From an uncultured Ruminococcus sp. (lineage in GTDB: Bacteria; Bacillota; Clostridia; Oscillospirales; Ruminococcaceae): a DNA stretch of 32,281 nucleotides. The position numbers and the translations under genes are program-made. Within the stretch, counting starts at the first letter, position 1. Each line of letters starts with the position of its first letter. Below, in pieces: positions 14,585 to 31,795 of the stretch. Under the pieces are notes generated by a model. The model ran no database searches, was not told the origin of the DNA, and saw only the letters and a program-made list of their open reading frames with translations. The stretch is from NCBI GenBank assembly GCA_947587925.1, contig CANPYF010000006.1, forward strand, positions 1-32,281. The letters are read 5' to 3'.

Positions 14585-16504
14585 TCATATTCCCTCGACG
14601 GCAGAGCCGCCGTCGGGTGTAAATCCTCCGTCAGGTCTGTTCCCGCGTCCGAAATTTCCGTCGGGAGCGAATCCGCCGCCGTTGTTGGGGTCAAAATTCT
14701 CGTCAGGAGCAAAACCACTGTTATTGTTAGGGTCAAAATTTTCGTCAGGTGTAAAACCGCCGCCGTTGTTTGGGTCAAAGTTTTCTCCGCGGTCAAAACC
14801 GCCGCCGCGACCGAATCCGCCGCCGTTTTGAGCAGTACCGCCGCCGTAAACGGTGCTTGTCATCTCTATCTCGGTGGAGGTATCGCCTATCGTCAGTGTG
14901 TAGGTCTCACCTTGTTTTATGGACGGGTCGCTGAGGATAACGCAGGAGAAGGACTGCTCGGCAGTATGCTCTATCAGCACATTTCCGCTGCTGTCGGTCA
15001 GCTTGACAGCCGTTCCCGCCGATTGGGTATTCACACTTGACATTATTGTGCCTTGGGTCGAATCGGTGCTGAAATTCTGCGCCATGCCCGACGCGCCAAG
15101 CCCGATAAATGTGCCGCCGCTGATAACGCCCGCAGAATCATAGTCGAGGATAGAAGTATCGCCGCTGACCGCGCCCGATACCGTGATGTTGCCGCCTGTA
15201 ATGTTCAGAGCGCCGTTGGCGTCAACGCCGTCACCGCCCATTTGGATAAAAATATCGCCGCCCGAAATGGTCATGCTGCCCGTTGAGGAGGAAAAATTGC
15301 CCCTGCCCGGACGGGTCATCATGCCGTCTGTTTCGGAAGAATTGCCGCCCGCAGCGTTCAGACCGTCATCATCCGCCTTGACCGAAATGTTTCCGCCTTT
15401 GATATACAAATTGGTGGCTTCGATACCCTCATAACTTTTTTGCACGTCAATTTTGGTTGACGAATCGGAAATCTCTAAATCGGTGTCGGCATGGATACCG
15501 TCATCACCCGAGGAGAGCGTGTAATCGCCGCCCGAAATGGTTATCGTTCCGTTTGAATGAATGCAGTCGTCCTGCGAGTTGACATTAAAAACGCAGTTGG
15601 TGAGATAAATATCCGAAGCGGCTTTCAGCCCTTTATACGATTCGGACGAAGCGGTAAGCGATTGTGTGCTGCCCGCGCCCGCGCTGACGGTCATCTCGGT
15701 ATTTTCCGCATTGACTATCGTTTCAGCCTGTATGCCGTCATTTTGGGCGGTTATATCAAGCTTAGCGCCCGAAAGCGAGACAAAGCCGCGCGCGCTGTCC
15801 TCCGTATTATCCGAACGGATACCATCACTGCCCGCGCTGACGGTTATATCGGTGTCACCTATTTTCACGCAGTCCTTGCCGCAAAGTCCGACATTTTCAG
15901 CCGTGACCTGCACATTGCCCGAAGTGATGATAAGATCGTCCTTAGAAACTATCCCATGTTTATTATTGCCGTTGACTATCAGCGTACCGCCGCCGCAAAC
16001 GGTAAGATCGGCTTTGCTGAAGACCGCGCCGTCCAAGTCCGAATCATCATCTGTAACAGAATAGCTGTCACCATCAGAAACGGTGTTGACCGTGCCGTCT
16101 GCGAGCGAGAGCGTGACATTTTTTGCCGACTTGACATAAATTGCAGGGCCGGTACTGTTTTGCAGGGTAACGCCGTTTAATATCAGCGTCACATCAGAAT
16201 CCTGCGCGTCAACGGTGACCATAGTATCGGACTTAGTACCGCTAAGGGTATACGAGCCGCCGGAAGTGATCGAGTAATTTTCGGAGGGCAGGGAGGACAG
16301 ATCGAGCGGAGTACCGTCTGCGGGGTCAGGCGCAGGCGTATTTGTATCGACCGAAAGATCCATACCGGAGGTATCCGCCTTAGTGAGGGAGTTGGAAGAA
16401 CCGGCTGATCTATCGGAAGCGGAAGAGCTATCGGAATCGGACGAGCAGCCGGTGACGGCGAAGCAAGTGAAAGCAGCGGCAAGCAGCAAAGAAAATTTTT
16501 TCAT
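14585..16504 (-). CDS. carbohydrate-binding domain (DUF4353-type) beta-helix-like lipoprotein with Gly/Asn/Pro-rich repeat tail
   Basis: Lipobox-like LLLAAAFTCFAVTGCSS; repeated VTLILNGVTLQNSTGPAIYVKSAKNVTLSLADGTVNTVSDG, GGTLIVNGNNKHGIVSKDDLIITSGNVQVTAENVGL, DDGIHADTDLEISDS motifs; C-terminal FDPNNGGGFTPDEN repeats. Confidence 0.85.
   Translation of the reverse strand: MKKFSLLLAAAFTCFAVTGCSSDSDSSSASDRSAGSSNSLTKADTSGMDLSVDTNTPAPDPADGTPLDLSSLPSENYSITSGGSYTLSGTKSDTMVTVDAQDSDVTLILNGVTLQNSTGPAIYVKSAKNVTLSLADGTVNTVSDGDSYSVTDDDSDLDGAVFSKADLTVCGGGTLIVNGNNKHGIVSKDDLIITSGNVQVTAENVGLCGKDCVKIGDTDITVSAGSDGIRSDNTEDSARGFVSLSGAKLDITAQNDGIQAETIVNAENTEMTVSAGAGSTQSLTASSESYKGLKAASDIYLTNCVFNVNSQDDCIHSNGTITISGGDYTLSSGDDGIHADTDLEISDSSTKIDVQKSYEGIEATNLYIKGGNISVKADDDGLNAAGGNSSETDGMMTRPGRGNFSSSTGSMTISGGDIFIQMGGDGVDANGALNITGGNITVSGAVSGDTSILDYDSAGVISGGTFIGLGASGMAQNFSTDSTQGTIMSSVNTQSAGTAVKLTDSSGNVLIEHTAEQSFSCVILSDPSIKQGETYTLTIGDTSTEIEMTSTVYGGGTAQNGGGFGRGGGFDRGENFDPNNGGGFTPDENFDPNNNSGFAPDENFDPNNGGGFAPDGNFGRGNRPDGGFTPDGGSAVEGI
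14652..14777. repeat. Approx. three tandem 42-bp coding repeats (14 aa: FDPNN(G/N)(G/S)GF(T/A)PD(E/G)N)
   Basis: Read from the protein: FDPNNGGGFTPDEN / FDPNNNSGFAPDEN / FDPNNGGGFAPDGN. Boundaries approximate. Confidence 0.85.
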
Positions 16505-16554
16505 AAAAAATACTCCTTAAAAAAATACGGTATAGCAATCAAACGAAAAGCCCA

Positions 16555-16882
16555 AACAACCGTGGGGTATATCAGTTTAGGATAGGGATCAAAGGGGATA
16601 ACCCTTTTTAAAGGGTTTCCCCTTTGCAGGGGCGCGGGGGCAGAGCCCCCGTCAAGGCACAAAAGAAGGAATCACATCAACCCAAACCGAGCGAACAATC
16701 CAAAAATTTTAAATCGGCGACCAATACAACACAGGGATAAAAAATCCAACAGAAAAGCGCCATCACCCGAATCAAAATCGCAGTAAAAAAGCCGATTTAA
16801 ATCGCAAACAAGAGCCACTTGCCCCTAAAGGGGCAGGTGAGCGAATTGTTCGCGAGACATAAAACGCGCGACAGCGCGTTCC
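16555..16882 (+). repeat. Structured intergenic element, copy A (~328 bp)
   Basis: Reverse-complement match along its length to 20508-20838. Hairpins AACCCTTTTTAAAGGGTT (16600-16617), CCCCTTTGCAGGGG (16619-16632), GGGGGCAGAGCCCCC (16636-16650), CACTTGCCCCTAAAGGGGCAGGTG (16816-16839), AACGCGCGACAGCGCGTT (16863-16880). Confidence 0.92.
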
Positions 16883-16909
16883 GAACCAACGAAGGAGAGA
16901 ACTGACCGC

Positions 16910-17602
16910 TCAAAGTTCCGCAACCGAATTTTCCTGCTTGGAAACGGTAATTTCAAGATTTCCGTTGCGGCAGCGTATTTTGTCGATCATTTCTTTTTCC
17001 TTTTTGGGGTCGCGGAGAGTGATCTGATAGGTCAGGCGGAACATACTGCCCATGTTGGTGGTTTTGACGCGTTCAAGTTCGTGTTCAACGGTGTAGGTGT
17101 CAAAAATGTCCTCGAAGACGTCCGAATAGTCCAGATCTTCGGGAATGGTTATCGAGAGCATTTTGTAAAGTTCCGCGCTTCTTTTTATGCCGAATTTAAG
17201 ACGGTTGTATAGCAAAAAGACCGCACTTAGGATCAGGGTGAATAAAACGGCAAATCCCAGATAACCCATGCCCGCGATAAGTCCTGTACTCATGGCTAAA
17301 AAGAGCGCACAGATCTCTTTTGCAGTACCCGGGGCGGAGCGGAAACGTACCAGACTGAAAGCGCCTGATACCGCAACGCCTGTGCCGATGTTGCCGTTTA
17401 CCATCATTATGACAATGCAGACGACTGCGGGCAGCAGCGCAAGCGTTACCACAAAACTTTTGGTGTACCTTGTTTTATACATATAACTCCATGCAAGCAG
17501 CAGCCCCAGCACAAGCGAAACGCTTATGCATAAAAGAAAATCCGACAGGTCTATGACCATTGCGTTTTGGTCGAATATCCCTTTGAACAGATCGTTAAGC
17601 AT
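16910..17602 (-). CDS. DUF4956 domain-containing membrane protein
   Basis: N-terminal TM helices, NGNIGTGVAVSGAFSLVRFRSAPGTAKEICALFLAMSTGLIAGMGYLGFAVLFTLILSAVFLL; adjacent to the VTC-domain gene. Confidence 0.88.
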   Translation of the reverse strand: MLNDLFKGIFDQNAMVIDLSDFLLCISVSLVLGLLLAWSYMYKTRYTKSFVVTLALLPAVVCIVIMMVNGNIGTGVAVSGAFSLVRFRSAPGTAKEICALFLAMSTGLIAGMGYLGFAVLFTLILSAVFLLYNRLKFGIKRSAELYKMLSITIPEDLDYSDVFEDIFDTYTVEHELERVKTTNMGSMFRLTYQITLRDPKKEKEMIDKIRCRNGNLEITVSKQENSVAEL

Positions 17603-18389
17603 AGCGAACCTCCTTTGGAAGTGAAATATTTATTTTTTGGGCGGGAACGTTTTGGATAAAATTATCTTGGATAAACTCGCCGCAAGCGGGCTCGCCCCGA
17701 ACGGCTATCAGTTTTTTGTACGCCGTGCCGTATTTGGAAAACGAAGTTTTGTAGATCTTTTGCTGCGAAAGGATACTCATCATCCAAAGCGGTATGCCGC
17801 CCGAACATTTTATTTCCATAAGCGTCATGCCGTCTTCGAGCAGCGGATAACCGCCGATGTCGGAGCACAGCGAAAGGTCGGACAGACGGGCGAGGATCTG
17901 CTCGTCAAAGGTCACGCGGAAATCGCTTCCGTCTGTTGCATAAAACGCTTCGCGTTCGTAGGATAAAAACGCGCGGGGACGCAGCGTGCCGTAATATTTC
18001 ATGAAATATTCTATCTCGTCGGCGATCTGCGTTTTTTTCGGACAGGGGGATATCCCGCTCAGCCAGAGGGTGGCGTCGATCTCACTCAGCGCGATACGCC
18101 GTTTGTAAACTACCGAGTCAAACTTCTTTTTCAGTTCGACAAAGACCGTGCTGTCCGATGTTGCCTGCGAGTAGCTGCGTATACGCAGCTTTTCTTTATA
18201 TACGGGACGTTCTATCGAACGGCGCACCAGCCGAAATTTGTCCGTGTCAAAATAGATATTGCTTATAGCCGTCCGTCCGTAGCTGTCAAGTTTCATATGC
18301 GCCGCAAGCGCATCGCAGACGGCTTGCTTTTGCTCCTTGGTCAGTAAATATTTTAGTTCGTAACGCTTAAATACGGTTTGAAATGCCAT
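17595..18389 (-). CDS. polyphosphate polymerase (VTC) domain-containing protein
   Basis: KRYELKYLLTKEQ, NIYFDTDKFRLVRRSIERPVYKEKLRIRSY, VFVELKKKFDSVVYKRRI, FLSYEREAFY, RVTFDEQI, LMEIKCSGGIPLWM, TSFSKYGTAY: VTC-domain pattern of conserved basic and acidic residues. Confidence 0.9.
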   Translation of the reverse strand: MAFQTVFKRYELKYLLTKEQKQAVCDALAAHMKLDSYGRTAISNIYFDTDKFRLVRRSIERPVYKEKLRIRSYSQATSDSTVFVELKKKFDSVVYKRRIALSEIDATLWLSGISPCPKKTQIADEIEYFMKYYGTLRPRAFLSYEREAFYATDGSDFRVTFDEQILARLSDLSLCSDIGGYPLLEDGMTLMEIKCSGGIPLWMMSILSQQKIYKTSFSKYGTAYKKLIAVRGEPACGEFIQDNFIQNVPAQKINISLPKEVRYA

Positions 18390-20507: not shown

Positions 20508-20838
20508 GGAACGCGCTGACGCGCGTTTTGTGGGGGTCGCGAACAATACGCTCACCTGCCCCTTAAAAGGGGCAGGCGGCTCTTGTTTGCGATTTAAATC
20601 GGCGTTTTTACTGCGATTTTGCGGGGGTTGATGGCGCTTCTCTGTTGGGGCTTTAACCCTGTGTTGTGTTTTTCGCCGATTTAAATTTTTTGGATTGTTC
20701 GCTCGGTTTGGGTTGATATGTTTCCTTCTTTTGCGCCTTGACGGGGGCTCTGCCCCCGCGCCCCTGCAAAGGGGAAACCCTTTAAAAAGGGTTATCCCCC
20801 TTGACCCCTATCCTAAACTTTTATGCCCCGCGGTTGTT
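20508..20838 (-). repeat. Structured intergenic element, copy B (~331 bp), inverted relative to copy A
   Basis: AACGCGCTGACGCGCGTT (20510-20527), CACCTGCCCCTTAAAAGGGGCAGGCG (20553-20578), GGGGGCTCTGCCCCC (20743-20757), CCCCTGCAAAGGGG (20761-20774), AACCCTTTAAAAAGGGTT (20776-20793), in the same order as the reverse complement of copy A. Confidence 0.92.
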
Positions 20839-20935
20839 GGACGTCTTACTTCTTACAGTCCGAACTTGTTCGGACGTCTGACCTCTTACAGTCCGAACTT
20901 GTTCGGACGTCTGACCTCTTACTTCTAACCTCTAA
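20839..20935. repeat. ~33-bp tandem repeat array with palindromic cores
   Basis: GTCCGAACTTGTTCGGAC at 20858-20875 and 20891-20908, joined by GTCTGACCTCTTACA-like segments. Confidence 0.9.
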
Positions 20936-24010: not shown

Positions 24011-27000
24011 ATGAGCATACATAAAAAACAAAGCTCCCGTAAACTGTTTATGCGTATCAAAGCGGGTATTCTTTCCGCTGTCGTGTTTGCAGGCTCTGTA
24101 ATGTCAAATTATGCGGGGCTTATAGATGATCCCGCAATGTACGCCGCAGGCGAAGGATCTTCCGTGTCAGGCGAAAGCTCCGCCGTAGTTATCCCGGAAG
24201 GTCTGAATTATGAGATCGAATTAAAATCAAACGCACAGTGGAAAGTGACTTTCAGCGGCAGCGCGGCTATTCCCGCGAATATCCTTGATGCCGATGTGTT
24301 CAGCGCGTATAGGGATAATATTGATGAGGTAGAGATCGGAGAAGGTATTTCTAAAATACCTGAAAATGCTTTTAAAGGGCTGAAAAGTCTGCATATCGTT
24401 GATTTTGGCAAAAATTCGGCTGTTACAGAGATAGGTGCATCTGCGTTTGCCGGCTGCACTTATCTTGAAATTGTCGATCTGGAAAATTGCACCGATCTGC
24501 AAACAATTTCAGACGCCGCTTTTCAGAATACGGGGCTTGTTGAAGTGACTATCCCCGCAAATTTAACAACGATAGGCAACAGCGCTTTCAATCAATGCGG
24601 CAGTCTTACCGACGTACATTTTGAAAAAGATTGCAAAGTCAGCAGTTTCGGGGATAAGGCATTCGATAACTGCAAATCGCTTGTAAATGTCGAACTTGAA
24701 AACTGTACGGCAGCACAGATCACTTTCAATCATTCGGATTACACAGGCGCATTTTCAAATTGCAATTCGCTGAAAAAAGTAACCGTTCCGGCAGGTGCAT
24801 GGAGTGATATCGGCAGTATTTTCAGAGAATCACACTCACTTGAATCAGTTACTTTTATGCCTAATAGCAATGAAATAAAAGGTATCGGAAATATTGTTGC
24901 GGAAACATCGGTGGACGTCCTTGACTTTTCTCCTCTTGAAGGATTGACCAACATTGGCGCATGGCAGGTCAGGGGCAACTCGGTGACAAAAGTCGTTTTC
25001 CCCTCTTCTGTGAGCGGTGTTGGTCAACAGGCAGTCGGCGATATGCACGCGCTTACCGTGGTCGAATTTAAGCCGAATAATACGCTTGCTTATATCGGCG
25101 GACAAATGTTTCAAAATGACGATGCTTTGGTTTCCGTCAATCTGGAAGCTCTCACAAATCTTCAGTGGATAAGCTCTCAGGCATTTGAGAATTGTGAAAG
25201 CCTGACCTCCGTTACTTTCCCAAAAACATTGACTAAAATAGAAAGCAGCGCTTTTAACAACTGCAAAGGGCTGATAGATGTAAAATATGACGCCGCAAAT
25301 TTGTCCGAGGTTCAGGATAACATTTTTAACGGCGCAGGCTCTTTCGACCTGACTATATGTGAAAATGTAAAGACTATCCCTGCAAGTTTTCTGCTTCAGG
25401 CACAGGACCATATTTCGGGTCTTAAATTTGAAGGCACACCGACTTTCACTATAACAGGCGAAGGCGATCTGAAAGAACCGTTTGCGGCAGGCGGTGAATA
25501 CACCGTTGACGAGGGCGGAAATCTTTATAAAGTTGACGGTGATAATGCCATACTTGTCTATGCAAATAAAACGGCAGGAGAAATAACTATCCCCGATTCC
25601 GTGAACGGTCATACGGTAACAGGCATAGCAAAAAATGCTTTCAGAAATTCAAATGTGACCGAGCTGACGTTTGAAAAACCTGAAAATATTACATCAATTG
25701 AGGAGTATGCTTTTGCAAATGCAATGCTGCTTGGATCGATCAACGGAGAAACTATAGACAGCGAAATCAAAGCACTGTTTACAAGTGCAAGTGCGATAGG
25801 CAGCAATATTTTCTATAATACGGAAATACAAAATGACAGCGGTACTAAAATTACAGAAGATGTTTTCTCAAATGGAGCAACGCCTGAAGAACATGGTACT
25901 GCAATTGAAATTTATAGAAGTGACACAAGAACCCTGAACTACACTGTTAGTAATCATACAGACGAAACCGACGGCAAATTCCTGACAGGTGAGACCGCAA
26001 AAGTGGAGTTCGCCTATAACGGCGGCCGTCCTGTAAGAATTTACATCAGAGCAGATAAAAATGCGGTCATCGAATTCAACGACAACGGCATTTCTCTTCA
26101 AGAAACAGGTGTTGATGGAATTTATTACTATGATGTTGTGCATGAAGGAGCATCAACAAGCAATAATATCCTTAGTCTGAGCTATCCGAATTTCACTCCT
26201 CCCGGCAGTAAAATGCAGGTATGGGCAGTTGAATTTGATGATAATGATGCATTTTATAATTATTTTAAAGATGAAAATAAAAATGCAGTCATTTATCCTG
26301 ATGATAAAGACGGAACAGGTAAATACGAGGTTTCGGATAAATATTTTGAGATCGAGTGGACGACAAAACCTAATGAATTTAAATTGACTAAAACTTATGA
26401 CTCTTCCGCTAATCCTTATTTTATCAAATCATCAGACGACAAAATAACTCTCAAAGACCTTAAATACAGGGTCACTTTTACTAAAGAAAATGCAGAGGCG
26501 GCTGATATAAATATCGGAAGCGATATCGTCCGCTATGTTGATTATGCGGATACGCTTGCTCTGCCCGAAAAGCTGAAATGGCTTGACGGAATAAATACAA
26601 GTTATACAGATACTCATTTTATCAAAAACGGTGACAGCGGTACGCTGTATATCAATATCGGCGGCAAGGACTACGAAATGTTTACGCTCTCAGGCGTGCA
26701 GAATCTTGTTGATATGTCTGTCAAGCCGACCAATGACGGAAAAATTTCGCTCTGCTGGCGGCTGGCAAATACAAGCTCGACTGCGGAGATAACCCCTTTT
26801 GACGGGTATATCACCTTCGGCTCGGAAGTAATTGTCGCTGACAATGATGTCACCGCAGGAATGGCTATCGGAGATATAAATAATAGTATTTCCGCAAATG
26901 AATATTTTACCTTTTCAAGAATGCAAAGCGACTCGGGCGCTGTCACAGTTACAAACTTTACCGCGCCCGACAGCAAACTTATTTTCAGCAAAGATGTGCT

Positions 27001-30000
27001 TGATACCGTTACCCGCATGGGCGAAGATGTGCGGTATAAGATAACGGTCGAAAATCCGTCTGCATTTGATTATACGGGTATGACGAAAATTACAGATGAT
27101 CTGAATGCAGATAAGCAAAGTATCCATTACATCAAGCCCGAAAATATGCAGGCTCTTTTTGACGAAGACTACGGCGATAAATTAACTATCACTATCAGCA
27201 ACGCAGTACTGGCAAAAAAATTGACACAATCAACAAATGTTCATACGATCAACAAAACAGACACTGCAACCATTTCCGAACAGAATACAGCCGCTAATGA
27301 CGATTTAGCGTATAAAGGCATGGCAAAAGCGGATTCGAGTGTTGCCTATAAAGATGTTACAATTACGCTGCACAAAAATAGTGATGGTTATATTGAACTT
27401 AAATATAATGAAGGTTCAGTTGATAAAACAATAACTATAGGCGTAGGAAGGGACAATCCTTCCATTGCTGACGCACTTGATTCAATAGGTTATATTGTCA
27501 CAGTATCAGACAGTTATAAATTGGAATGGGATTTTAAAGATTATACATTTGAGGGCGGCAAAAAGATAGAATTTGACATCAATGCGTCCCTTAAAGATTC
27601 GCTGATGTATCTGCCGGAAAAGGATCATAACGCTTATTATAACGCGCCGAGCGGTATTGAGATACCTACTTTTAATAGGGCGGATCTTAGCGGAGATGAA
27701 CCTGATTCTGCGCAAACGCCCGAACAAAAAGTGTATCATGATCTTAAGATCAGAAAAGGCGCTTATATCGGCGGGGAGGAGATGAACGAGAACTACCAGC
27801 CGAAGGATAATGATGTTCTTGATTATTTTGTAAAGGTCTCTCATGAAGGCTCGGGCAGCTATGATGTTCTGCCCGTGGTCGACCATATGACGGGCAAACA
27901 GGCGGTCATTGTTGAGTTTGAGCGGAATAAAAACGCCAAATGGGCTACAGAGCTCACTTGGGTCAATTATCCCGAATCGGAAGGCGAAAACAAAATAATC
28001 ACTATTGACGGAGTAAAATACTATGTTCTGAATCAAGATCATACTTACAATGGCGTTTATACAAGCGAATATTATGCCGATTCGATCACGGTAAAGAAAA
28101 CCGAAGACGGTCTTGACACGCTGATAAAATACTATATTGAAAATACACCCGAAAGAGATTTTGACCTTGATGTGACCTACAAAGCGATAACAAGTCAGGA
28201 ACTTGCCGGCAATGTATACACAAACGATAAGTTTACTCTTGGAAATGAAGCATGGCTGAACGACCGCCCCGGACACAGAATTTATGATGAGATCGGCGTG
28301 AGCGGCTCTGCCGTTGAGATAGATAAGAAAATACTTATCGGTGAAATGAAAGATGATCCGGAAGACGAAGACGTTGTCGAAGAGCTCCCTATCAAGCAGA
28401 GCGAAAATCAGGTCACCTACAGGCTTATGCTGCACAGCATAGCGGTGAAAACCGATGACGACGGAAATATCACGGATATTGGTTCCGAACTGACGGTGAA
28501 CGGCAATGATATTTTTGATATGCTGCCGCTTACGGGAAGTGCGTTTGATTGGTCGAAAGACAACATCAGTAATATTACTTATAAGGCCGGCGAAGCGGGC
28601 TATCGAAAAGAAGAGGATAGCTTTATAAAAGATGTTCCCGGAAAATTCACTTATAATGGCGTAGAATTAAATGGTAAAAGTGGCGGAAGCGAATGGGAAG
28701 TTAAAAAATATAGTGAAGGCAGTCCTTCGGAAATAGTTAAACCGACAGACACCGCCGACCAGCAATATATTAAATGGAACGAGAATTTCAATGTAATACT
28801 CCCGCCTGACGCGACGGTGTATATGTATGTGACGCTCACCTTCCCCGGAAAAGATAAAGATGAACAATGGGATACATTCCTGAAAGAAAAGGGTACTGAT
28901 AAACTTATCAACACATTTTATGTGTACAATATGCCCTCGCCTGTTTCTCACACCCTCGCCGACCCGCCTGTTGCGCTGCTCCAGAAGGGCGTTTATGAAA
29001 CGGGAACTTATGTCACTAAAAATGAATGGGCAGAACTGACAAATCAGTATTTTATTGGACCGGACAGATTCCATTATTCAAACACTTATACGGGAAGCAG
29101 ACTGAAAAACACGGTAACTTATTATGTCGTTCTGCGCAATTCGGGAAATACTAATTTGTATCTCGCCCCGCTTTATGATATTCTGCCGCCGGGATTTTCT
29201 TATATGGCGCTGCGAACAGCTGACGGAAGTGATCCGACTTCAAATCAGCATGTAGGCAGCAGTGAAGTTTATTGGAGTTCTAAAGGTCAAGCTACTGATA
29301 ACCATGTAGGAATTATCGCAAAGCCTAAGGACGATAACAATGATGATTTTGCAAATATTTTACCTAATTATGAAAATTATGTAAGAACCAAGGTGAAATA
29401 TTCCTATGCTGAAGACAGTGAAAAACATGAAACCGATGATGGACGCCAAATACTTAAATTTGAATTTGAAAACGATAACTCTTACACCGGACTTCCATAC
29501 GATGACAAAAAAGACGCATATTACCTTGAACCCGGTCAATTTTTGCAATTTGCATACACCTGTTACACGGGTGATAATGAGATCAACGAAGCTGAAAATA
29601 CGATCGTTATGCAGAGTTATGACCCGTACAATACGGGTGCGTCGCCCGAAATAGATGATACCACGGACGTTGTTGTAAAAAATATTCACAAGACTGCGCC
29701 GAACAATGACGGCGGGCGTGAACTCTGGACAAATAAAGATGCTGAAAATGCAGATTTTAAAGGCGAAGGTATTGACATAGTAGGAGATGATAAAGAGCCC
29801 TATTGGTTTGCGTCTTCCGTCAAGGTCACAAGGGATAAAATTTCCCCGGGCATTAAGAAAACGGTAAAAGAACCTATGATAGCATCCGGTGATAAAGCTG
29901 AATGGACGGTAACTTCATTTAACAATTCGCCTTCCGAAATTTCAGGCTATAAGATCACAGATACGCTCGATCTGCCGCTGCAATTTTCGGGAAATTTCAA

Positions 30001-31795
30001 CTATTGTATGTATGGACGTAATAATAACGGTACGGATAGTTGGTATGTCTGCGCGGGCGGAAACCCCGAAAGTGATGACAGCTATCTGTTCAATATGACC
30101 AGGGACGGAGATAATATTACAGTAACTTCAAATACAGGTGATTCCGCAACTCTGACAATTGGCGGAGAAGAAAAAGAATTAAGCATAAAAACCGTATGCA
30201 ATAAAAATTTGACCGAAGATGTCAGAGCAAAGATCACCGTACAGATCTCCCATGATGAAAATAATCATGAAGTTTTAACTATAGGTTTCCCCGATAAAAA
30301 ATGGGGTATGCTCCCGAACGGTTACAGCAAATTGACGTTTTCCACCGGTCCGAAAGAAGTTGCCGCAGGCAAAGGTATCGACCCCGGAACATATACAAAT
30401 ACGGCGATGTTCAGCCCCGAGGACAATAAATATGATGACCGCATTACACAAGGCAGACTTGTCAAAGATAAAGACGGCAACAATATTGGTGTAGAATCTT
30501 CCGCAGTCGTCAGCATTTACGAGGGCAGCCCGTCAGGTTCGGTCAAGATGATCGAGGAAAAAGGTAAACCGGCTAATTTCACCACTTCCGAAAGAGATGA
30601 TAATTATATCAGTCTCAAGAATAAGAAGGATATATTTACTTATACGCTGGAAGTGCGAAATGTCAACGATGCAGAATCAATGAGTAATCTGGTCATCATC
30701 GATAATCTTCCTCAGACTGATGACGCAACAACGCTCCGGCAGGAAAGCAAGCGTGAAAGTGAATTTAAGGTAAGCCTTGCGGAAAATCCTGATGTCCAAG
30801 TATGGCTCTATGAAGATGCGAAAGCGCTGAATGAAATAACGGGTAGAGATAAAACATCTCCTGCTAAATATGATACGAGTATAACTCCTAAAGTTCTTGA
30901 ACAGGGCAAAGATTACATCGTCGAATACAGCGATAAACCCAATGACTTCAATGAGGACGACTGGACAGGGAAAAATTATCCGATCGAAACAGGTGGTAAT
31001 ATGTGGTATGACGCCCCTACATCATCTACCCGCTCAATAAGAATACACTTTACGACGGACAGGGATATTGAGAAAAATCAGGCTGTCCAGATACGCTTTG
31101 ACGCGCATATAGACGACACGGCTGCTTCACCGGGTCAGATCGCATGGAACACTTTCGGCTACAGCTACAGCATTCGCAGCTTGGTCGCAAAAGCCTCGCC
31201 GAACAAAGTAGGTATATGTATTCCCGGCTGCCCGACACTTTCCAAAAAAGTTGTAAACTCAAAAGGCGAAACCTCGGCTGTACCCGAAAATACAACGTTT
31301 GGATTTATCATCTATAAGAGCGATAAACCTATTGATTTCAAGGACTGCACGGCAAAAACGGTTGGAGAAGCATTGACGGGCGTAGATTTTATGTACACTG
31401 AACTTACTGTTGAAAAAGATCAATCCGAATCTGCTGAAAAGATGTTAGAAAAGTTCGTGAAATGGGAGTATACCGCCGGAGATGGATTTAAGAGTACATC
31501 GGCAGTAAGTGACTGGGACACGGAAGCAGCATATCACATTGTTGAATTAGATGCCGGCGAAAATTATAGTTATAGAAGCACCAATAATGCGGAAGAAAAT
31601 AACTACGAATTTAAGCTCGCGCCGATAGGCAATACTTCGCTGAATTTTGTCAATGAGAATATGATCTCTGCCCCTGTGGAACTGCCTTCGGCAGGCGGCA
31701 AAGGTACAAGAATGTTTATTATCGGCGGTCTGATGACGCTCTGTTCGGGTGCATTTTTCCTTATGCGGAATAAGCGCAAAAATACAAAGGCATGA
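24011..31795 (+). CDS. 2594-aa cell-wall-anchored surface protein: signal peptide, BspA-like leucine-rich repeats, repeated DUF11/isopeptide-type stalk domains, FctA-like C-terminal domain, LPSAG sortase signal
   Basis: MSIHKKQSSRKLFMRIKAGILSAVVFAGSVMSNYAG signal; LRR_5 repeats (IPENAFKGLKSLHIVDFGKNSAVTEIGASAFAGCTYLEIVDL...); stalk segments (RNSGNTNLYLAPLYDILPPGFSYM, ITDTLDLPLQFSG); C-terminus LPSAGGKGTRMFIIGGLMTLCSGAFFLMRNKRKNTKA. Confidence 0.93.
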   Translation: MSIHKKQSSRKLFMRIKAGILSAVVFAGSVMSNYAGLIDDPAMYAAGEGSSVSGESSAVVIPEGLNYEIELKSNAQWKVTFSGSAAIPANILDADVFSAYRDNIDEVEIGEGISKIPENAFKGLKSLHIVDFGKNSAVTEIGASAFAGCTYLEIVDLENCTDLQTISDAAFQNTGLVEVTIPANLTTIGNSAFNQCGSLTDVHFEKDCKVSSFGDKAFDNCKSLVNVELENCTAAQITFNHSDYTGAFSNCNSLKKVTVPAGAWSDIGSIFRESHSLESVTFMPNSNEIKGIGNIVAETSVDVLDFSPLEGLTNIGAWQVRGNSVTKVVFPSSVSGVGQQAVGDMHALTVVEFKPNNTLAYIGGQMFQNDDALVSVNLEALTNLQWISSQAFENCESLTSVTFPKTLTKIESSAFNNCKGLIDVKYDAANLSEVQDNIFNGAGSFDLTICENVKTIPASFLLQAQDHISGLKFEGTPTFTITGEGDLKEPFAAGGEYTVDEGGNLYKVDGDNAILVYANKTAGEITIPDSVNGHTVTGIAKNAFRNSNVTELTFEKPENITSIEEYAFANAMLLGSINGETIDSEIKALFTSASAIGSNIFYNTEIQNDSGTKITEDVFSNGATPEEHGTAIEIYRSDTRTLNYTVSNHTDETDGKFLTGETAKVEFAYNGGRPVRIYIRADKNAVIEFNDNGISLQETGVDGIYYYDVVHEGASTSNNILSLSYPNFTPPGSKMQVWAVEFDDNDAFYNYFKDENKNAVIYPDDKDGTGKYEVSDKYFEIEWTTKPNEFKLTKTYDSSANPYFIKSSDDKITLKDLKYRVTFTKENAEAADINIGSDIVRYVDYADTLALPEKLKWLDGINTSYTDTHFIKNGDSGTLYINIGGKDYEMFTLSGVQNLVDMSVKPTNDGKISLCWRLANTSSTAEITPFDGYITFGSEVIVADNDVTAGMAIGDINNSISANEYFTFSRMQSDSGAVTVTNFTAPDSKLIFSKDVLDTVTRMGEDVRYKITVENPSAFDYTGMTKITDDLNADKQSIHYIKPENMQALFDEDYGDKLTITISNAVLAKKLTQSTNVHTINKTDTATISEQNTAANDDLAYKGMAKADSSVAYKDVTITLHKNSDGYIELKYNEGSVDKTITIGVGRDNPSIADALDSIGYIVTVSDSYKLEWDFKDYTFEGGKKIEFDINASLKDSLMYLPEKDHNAYYNAPSGIEIPTFNRADLSGDEPDSAQTPEQKVYHDLKIRKGAYIGGEEMNENYQPKDNDVLDYFVKVSHEGSGSYDVLPVVDHMTGKQAVIVEFERNKNAKWATELTWVNYPESEGENKIITIDGVKYYVLNQDHTYNGVYTSEYYADSITVKKTEDGLDTLIKYYIENTPERDFDLDVTYKAITSQELAGNVYTNDKFTLGNEAWLNDRPGHRIYDEIGVSGSAVEIDKKILIGEMKDDPEDEDVVEELPIKQSENQVTYRLMLHSIAVKTDDDGNITDIGSELTVNGNDIFDMLPLTGSAFDWSKDNISNITYKAGEAGYRKEEDSFIKDVPGKFTYNGVELNGKSGGSEWEVKKYSEGSPSEIVKPTDTADQQYIKWNENFNVILPPDATVYMYVTLTFPGKDKDEQWDTFLKEKGTDKLINTFYVYNMPSPVSHTLADPPVALLQKGVYETGTYVTKNEWAELTNQYFIGPDRFHYSNTYTGSRLKNTVTYYVVLRNSGNTNLYLAPLYDILPPGFSYMALRTADGSDPTSNQHVGSSEVYWSSKGQATDNHVGIIAKPKDDNNDDFANILPNYENYVRTKVKYSYAEDSEKHETDDGRQILKFEFENDNSYTGLPYDDKKDAYYLEPGQFLQFAYTCYTGDNEINEAENTIVMQSYDPYNTGASPEIDDTTDVVVKNIHKTAPNNDGGRELWTNKDAENADFKGEGIDIVGDDKEPYWFASSVKVTRDKISPGIKKTVKEPMIASGDKAEWTVTSFNNSPSEISGYKITDTLDLPLQFSGNFNYCMYGRNNNGTDSWYVCAGGNPESDDSYLFNMTRDGDNITVTSNTGDSATLTIGGEEKELSIKTVCNKNLTEDVRAKITVQISHDENNHEVLTIGFPDKKWGMLPNGYSKLTFSTGPKEVAAGKGIDPGTYTNTAMFSPEDNKYDDRITQGRLVKDKDGNNIGVESSAVVSIYEGSPSGSVKMIEEKGKPANFTTSERDDNYISLKNKKDIFTYTLEVRNVNDAESMSNLVIIDNLPQTDDATTLRQESKRESEFKVSLAENPDVQVWLYEDAKALNEITGRDKTSPAKYDTSITPKVLEQGKDYIVEYSDKPNDFNEDDWTGKNYPIETGGNMWYDAPTSSTRSIRIHFTTDRDIEKNQAVQIRFDAHIDDTAASPGQIAWNTFGYSYSIRSLVAKASPNKVGICIPGCPTLSKKVVNSKGETSAVPENTTFGFIIYKSDKPIDFKDCTAKTVGEALTGVDFMYTELTVEKDQSESAEKMLEKFVKWEYTAGDGFKSTSAVSDWDTEAAYHIVELDAGENYSYRSTNNAEENNYEFKLAPIGNTSLNFVNENMISAPVELPSAGGKGTRMFIIGGLMTLCSGAFFLMRNKRKNTKA

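Follow-up and report, generated by a model that had tools for sequence, protein, structure and literature searches.

Two copies of an intergenic repeat of about 330 nt lie as one inverted pair in the window, by which we mean the whole stretch of 32,281 nt from an uncultured Ruminococcus sp. that was analysed here. They belong to a repeat family that is shown in the following to be genus-restricted, multi-copy, intergenic, inserted and species-specific in position, and that folds into helices which covary between species. We regard it as moderately probable that these repeats form a single mobile family, non-coding and non-autonomous, which would spread as folded single-stranded DNA (ssDNA) through the action of a trans-acting enzyme. 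A previous sequence-only reading of the same DNA had proposed a structured RNA or ssDNA element with nested pairing. The structural constraint that it noticed holds, while the high-copy mobile nature of the repeat went unrecognised; of the two natures that it named, ssDNA fits better than RNA. The small mobile repeats known in bacteria thereby gain an undescribed, genus-wide family with quantified covariation.

Layout of the two copies and their shared fold

Copy A (16555-16882, plus strand) and copy B (20508-20838, minus strand) were delimited by their inverted-repeat match to each other and by alignment of the copies of the genome, which holds seven full copies and one that is truncated at a contig end. 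We refer to the written strand of copy A, which is the strand that folds, as strand A. On the plus strand, copy A carries an accessory hairpin module GGGGATAACCCTTTTTAAAGGGTTTCCCC (16594-16622), the same as in ten genomes of the genus and found standing alone too in G005, and an accessory hairpin CGGGGGCAGAGCCCCCG (16634-16651) that is also evident in the seven-copy alignment. The conserved core (16707-16857; match to covariance model R1 in cmsearch, 79.4 bits) comprises two helices. P3 is formed by a 5' arm TTTAAATCGGC (16708-16718) and a 3' arm GCCGATTTAAA (16791-16801), and H2 by the arms TCGCaAACAA (16802-16811) and TTGTTcGCGA (16846-16855). An extra hairpin within the H2 apex (16816-16839), visible in the alignment and in the list of loops, is an insertion of the window species, and similar ones occur in some copies of G007 and G008. 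The hairpin H1, AACGCGC-GACA-GCGCGTT, follows at 16863-16880; other species have H1 with different sequences.

In copy B, on the minus strand, the core spans 20535-20686 (76.6 bits). Comparison of the seven copies places the 5' and 3' arms of P3 at 20674-20686 and 20592-20604, those of H2 at 20583-20592 and 20537-20546, the accessory hairpin at 20742-20759 and the accessory module at 20771-20799; H1, with the loop GTCA, lies at 20510-20527. Beside copy B, a 33-nt unit GGACGTCTKACYTCTTACAGTCCGAACTTGTTC occurs in two tandem copies (20839-20904). Heptad-like pyrimidine repeats border many copies of the family (window positions 20839-20930; flanks in G000, G011 and RUG12685), with the heptads CTTCTAA in the window species, TTTCTTA in G011 and ATTCCGA in RUG12685, and they have the same strand relative to the repeat in the copies read. 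They may represent a target, a tail or an independent repeat.

Folding of the 201-nt region of copy A gave z = -5.9 with DNA parameters and -7.5 with RNA parameters, and copy B reached z = -6.5 (DNA parameters). None of 200 shuffles folded as well as the real copies, and the pairing in copies A and B is not due to chance. All four complementary segments named in the sequence-only reading are present at their places in copy A and have counterparts in copy B. It had joined them into a long-range outer helix, with the left arm GCGAACAAT (16691-16699) and a right arm coinciding with the H2 3' arm, which encloses an inner pair identical to P3 and a further hairpin, giving a three-way junction. Since two copies are too few for judging conservation, the seven full copies of the genome were compared. 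The inner pair is complete (11/11) in all seven, so that this part of the claimed nested pairing is conserved; the outer pair is complete (9/9) only in copies A, B and C120, with 6, 4, 7 and 4 of the nine positions paired in the other four. H2, which is intact in 7/7 copies, uses the ATTGTTCGC segment of the outer pair, so that the two helices are mutually exclusive. We therefore reject the outer helix as a conserved fold: it is complete in 3/7 copies, incompatible with H2 and unsupported by covariation. Both A and B, when folded singly, form the outer helix, which accounts for the fold originally drawn, and with the enclosing helix not conserved, the three-way junction is not the shared topology. 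The shared fold consists of three neighbouring units: P3 with a loop of about 65 nt, H2 directly after it, and the small hairpin H1. That the pairing goes beyond what terminators explain was correctly noted; a T-run is absent behind the hairpins of the repeat, and an ordinary terminator was rejected.

Distribution, insertion and orientation in the genus

A DNA search of the genus (uncultured rumen and rabbit "Ruminococcus") recovered related repeats in 10 of its 13 species. A pattern scan of genome contigs, in which many chance matches arose beyond Ruminococcus and only Ruminococcus loci were kept, places uncultured Ruminococcus RUG12685 (rumen) and Lapin-002 bin99 (rabbit) among the hosts. 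With the covariance model we counted 7 copies in the genome of the window species and 13, at least 150, 66, 36, at least 150, 108, 11, 54 and 9 in the others, and zero in three of the 13 species. The genus thus offers a natural experiment, with ten species that have 7 to at least 150 copies and three that have none. Among 249 genomes from 126 genera of the family, the covariance model with stricter filters found the repeat in this genus alone. A search of Rfam (4227 families) returned nothing above the gathering threshold in the window, nor at the repeat in the loci of seven relatives. Phages and plasmids gave zero DNA matches, and 12 viral contigs that had matched the pattern by chance failed the covariance model; a phage or plasmid origin was rejected.

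On strand A, other species of the genus have TAAATCGGC, about 65 A/C-rich nt, GCCGATTTA and H2 as the core, then one or more small H1 hairpins, with accessory hairpin modules upstream. The H2 stems differ widely among species and copies around a constant apical motif, AGC-loop-GCG. The accessory hairpin module GGGGGAAACCCTTTTGAAAAAGGGTTATCCCCC together with CCTAAAACTTTTAAT stands on its own at many sites in G005 (loci L045-L058), so that its spread is separate from that of the core. Another genus has a single exact copy of the GGGGAAACCC...GGGTTATCCCC module without the core (L099, G237:C19:25542), through either transfer or contamination. RUG12685 contains a second repeat with hairpins GTAGGGGCG...CGCCC that resembles the canonical REP form (L175:2631 and other loci), one copy of which (about 100 nt) is inserted within the folding repeat, just after GCCGATTTAA. 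Many contigs of this genome terminate in or right beside a copy of the folding repeat (e.g., L125, L130, L158, L163 and L169), suggesting that it breaks metagenome assemblies, as such repeats probably do in general.

Copy A is flanked by the genes for a Cthe_2159-type carbohydrate-binding protein (14585-16504) and a DUF4956 protein (16910-17602). Together with a VTC domain protein they occupy 14585-18389 of the window, in an order conserved across most of the genus, and this gene group is possibly a functional unit. The same gene order is found in the loci of nine relatives, and the repeat is absent from the DUF4956/Cthe_2159 gap in all nine. The intergenic distance is 76-142 nt in seven of these relatives (the other two were left out of this comparison as their start codons are ambiguous) versus 405 nt in the window. 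In G005 a copy lies at another place, upstream of VTC. Similarly, orthologues in G011 and G004 of the genes adjoining G007 copies have no repeat within 1.5 kb. A single gain at the copy A site is likelier than a loss in every relative, and the repeat at this site is an insertion.

Of 64 placed copies, 60 are intergenic, and the remaining 4 overlap only ORFs of 91-110 aa. Their orientation is biased. The gene upstream of the repeat on strand A lies on the same strand in 45/60 cases, and tandem intergenic sites place strand A on the coding strand in 30 cases ('>>') against 9 ('<<'; p = 0.001), as did 33 of 40 sites (33:7) in an earlier, partly overlapping set that included a few mis-oriented duplicates. 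In 44/60, strand A shows positive GC skew. Sites where gene direction and skew conflict are split evenly, so that replication and transcription are inseparable as the cause of the bias. Copies less than 400 nt apart are inverted in 7/7 pairs, with their H1/H2 ends facing each other as in REPIN/BIME. Further along the window, at 24011-31795, a 2594-aa ORF encodes a leucine-rich-repeat-like surface-protein sequence with a C-terminal membrane-anchor-like end.

The preference for the coding strand (30/39 tandem sites, and 33/40 in the overlapping set) would also suit a structured RNA, that is, an untranslated-region element or small RNA acting in transcripts, whose many copies would be retained for stabilising or regulating the adjacent mRNAs. 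We consider this unlikely, though individual copies may act as RNA. Both window copies break the orientation rule, copy A being antisense to both neighbour genes and copy B lying between convergent genes; a promoter or terminator was not found at the repeat; its position differs between species, and copies range from none to at least 150 within one genus.

Covariation and the level of constraint

Covariation was first evaluated on 41 copies, drawn from nine or ten species and aligned with MAFFT blind to structure. Over P3 and H2, 89.9% of the cells were paired versus 74.9±0.8 in shuffles, and the covariation score was 0.372 versus 0.124±0.010; shifting the partners by 1-3 columns as a sliding control gave scores of at most 0.143. 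The shuffles leave kinship uncorrected, the sliding control retains it, and many pairs occur with three or four Watson-Crick types. A second alignment of 127 distinct copies, which was built with the covariance model and thus leans towards structure, scored 0.383 versus 0.129±0.005 in shuffles, with both sides changed in 18 of 27 pairs. The P3 core (AATCGGC/GCCGATT) is near-invariant, while the ends of P3 and almost all of H2 covary. On the strength of these comparisons the helices P3 and H2 are shown to be under structural constraint across species, the fold being kept while the letters change. Covariation over homologues and an Rfam search were among the checks that the sequence-only reading had suggested. 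The first gave a strong signal that backs the inner helix P3 and not the outer helix, and the second gave zero matches, in keeping with its proposal of an undescribed structured element.

Covariation of this strength is compatible with folding as RNA, as are the P3 loop, which is A/C-rich on strand A as is often the case in unpaired RNA, and the tandem G·A pairs that occur on strand A next to the H2 apex in 27/41 copies and for which strand A is the preferred strand. The apical loops and the mismatches point in another direction. The pattern caught 106 H2 apical loops, 104 of which belong to the classes GNA (50), GNNA (42) or GNAB (12) and are closed by C-G. According to what Yoshizawa in 1997 and Nakano in 2002 are said to have found, these are extra-stable loop classes of DNA. 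They include GGA, GCA, GAAC, GAAT and GNYA, which are not favoured in RNA, and the RNA-favoured GNRA accounts for only 35 of the 106 and is thus not preferred. GCGAAGC is a solved DNA mini-hairpin (PMC5430850), and aptamers are reportedly stabilised by a mini-hairpin DNA (PMC4686876). Variable pairs contain 40 G·T versus 49 A·C, with no wobble excess on strand A; H2 alone has 35 G·T versus 19 A·C, mainly in one column pair, a slight lean to RNA. The stable-DNA apical loops, G·T not exceeding A·C and the lack of terminal repeats and target duplications (see below) make DNA look likelier than RNA, and the evidence favours constraint at the DNA level. Loop classes combined with G·T versus A·C counts provide a testable way of separating DNA-level from RNA-level selection on hairpins. 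As a practical warning, mobile DNA that folds can produce intergenic covariation in gut and rumen Firmicutes, which can then be wrongly catalogued as structured RNA.

Covariation could also arise from mutation instead of selection for a fold, if template switching in replicating quasi-palindromes makes the compensatory changes. Hairpins reportedly can arise and be preserved through template switching (PMC8794818), and the similar rates of G·T and A·C intermediates agree with it. As an account of the covariation seen here it is nevertheless distinctly unlikely: motifs beyond the variable stems are conserved (AATCGGC/GCCGATT, the apical AGC...GCG and the loop classes), and the arms of P3 covary although they lie about 65 nt apart. 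Template switching would explain the perfection of stems and not the spread of copies, and is therefore compatible with a mobile repeat.

Candidate mobiliser and related systems

Terminal inverted repeats were not found: the four copies with script-set ends have no in-register match of 3 nt or more, and none was seen by eye in the rest. Nor was a consistent target site duplication found at the approximate ends of the copies; ACTTCT on both sides of two copies is the surrounding heptad repeat. Both results speak against a MITE moved passively by a conventional cut-and-paste (DDE) insertion sequence, which we consider very unlikely. Dispersal, the absence of coding capacity and autonomy, and species-specific insertion would be expected of such an element, but conservation between species is internal and not terminal, and among the DNA matches in its own genome, all of them full or contig-end copies, none has the ends of the repeat around a transposase gene.

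For a spread as folded ssDNA, the RAYT-like genes (REP-associated transposases) provide a candidate enzyme. Full-length genes were found in G004, G006, G007 and G011 and a fragment in G008, so that a RAYT-like Y1 gene is present in 5/6 genomes with at least 36 copies versus 0/7 others (p = 0.005, kinship uncorrected). PF01797 matches in G005, G012 and G008 C18 were rejected as RAYT, since they are either fragments of IS200 type or pieces at contig ends; the PF01797 match in G001 is of the ordinary IS200 type. As the repeat does not flank the RAYT genes in any of the five genomes, and G005 (99% complete, 66 copies) is without one, RAYT is a candidate only and not a proven mobiliser. Neither a transposition intermediate nor a recent excision was observed.

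We propose that the transposing form would be strand A folded as single-stranded DNA, for example where it is exposed on the lagging-strand template. An enzyme supplied in trans might recognise the hairpins and move the repeat without terminal inverted repeats or target duplication, on the model of the Y1 (HUH) transposases that move IS200/IS605 and REP elements. In high-copy species the most likely candidate for this enzyme would be the single-copy RAYT-like Y1 transposase; in species without RAYT, including that of the window (83.5% completeness), the copies may be relics or rely on another enzyme. Inserted copies, mostly downstream of a gene on the coding strand, may incidentally supply transcripts with RNA hairpins. 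More tentatively, it is conceivable that the repeat represents a new kind of ssDNA transposing unit, in which a bipartite fold of about 130 nt (long-looped P3 and mini-loop-capped H2) instead of two short end hairpins would be read whole by a trans-acting transposase, with large expansions within the genus.

Among known systems, the REP/BIME/REPIN elements share much with the repeat: they are high-copy, intergenic, non-autonomous hairpin repeats with inverted dimers, their structure is recognisable despite sequence change between species, they form species-specific subfamilies, and they are associated with RAYT (TnpA-REP), as RAYT-like genes are present in 5/10 repeat-bearing genomes here. REPs are, however, single hairpins of 20-40 bp, whereas the present core of about 130 nt has two helices, a loop of about 65 nt and accessory hairpins, and the full repeat measures about 330 nt or more. 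RAYT genes are usually flanked by their own REPs (PMC6006769) and the known RAYT partners are GTAG-tagged REPs (PMC3733652), whereas the RAYT genes here are unflanked by the repeat, and inspection of the copy alignments revealed no GTAG or GTGG tag at the base of H1, H2 or P3. For these two reasons we do not file the repeat as a REPIN/BIME, though it works like one.

With IS200/IS605-type (Y1) elements the repeat has in common hairpins on one strand, the lack of terminal inverted repeats and target duplication, and an orientation bias that fits the lagging-strand template (30:9; GC skew 44/60), transcription fitting equally well. It differs in having no internal transposase; left and right end hairpins and cleavage tetranucleotides were not identified, and its enzyme partner is a candidate. 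Like the structured RNAs of Rfam, the repeat possesses covarying helices and conserved motifs; it differs from them in matching no family and in that its position and number are not conserved. BOX, RUP and RU elements are modular, intergenic, non-coding repeats that have been proposed to be non-autonomous and mobile. Compared by description only, the present repeat is likewise modular, intergenic and non-coding, and it is set apart from them by a fold that extends across the genus, for which covariation was measured, and by its conserved apical motif.
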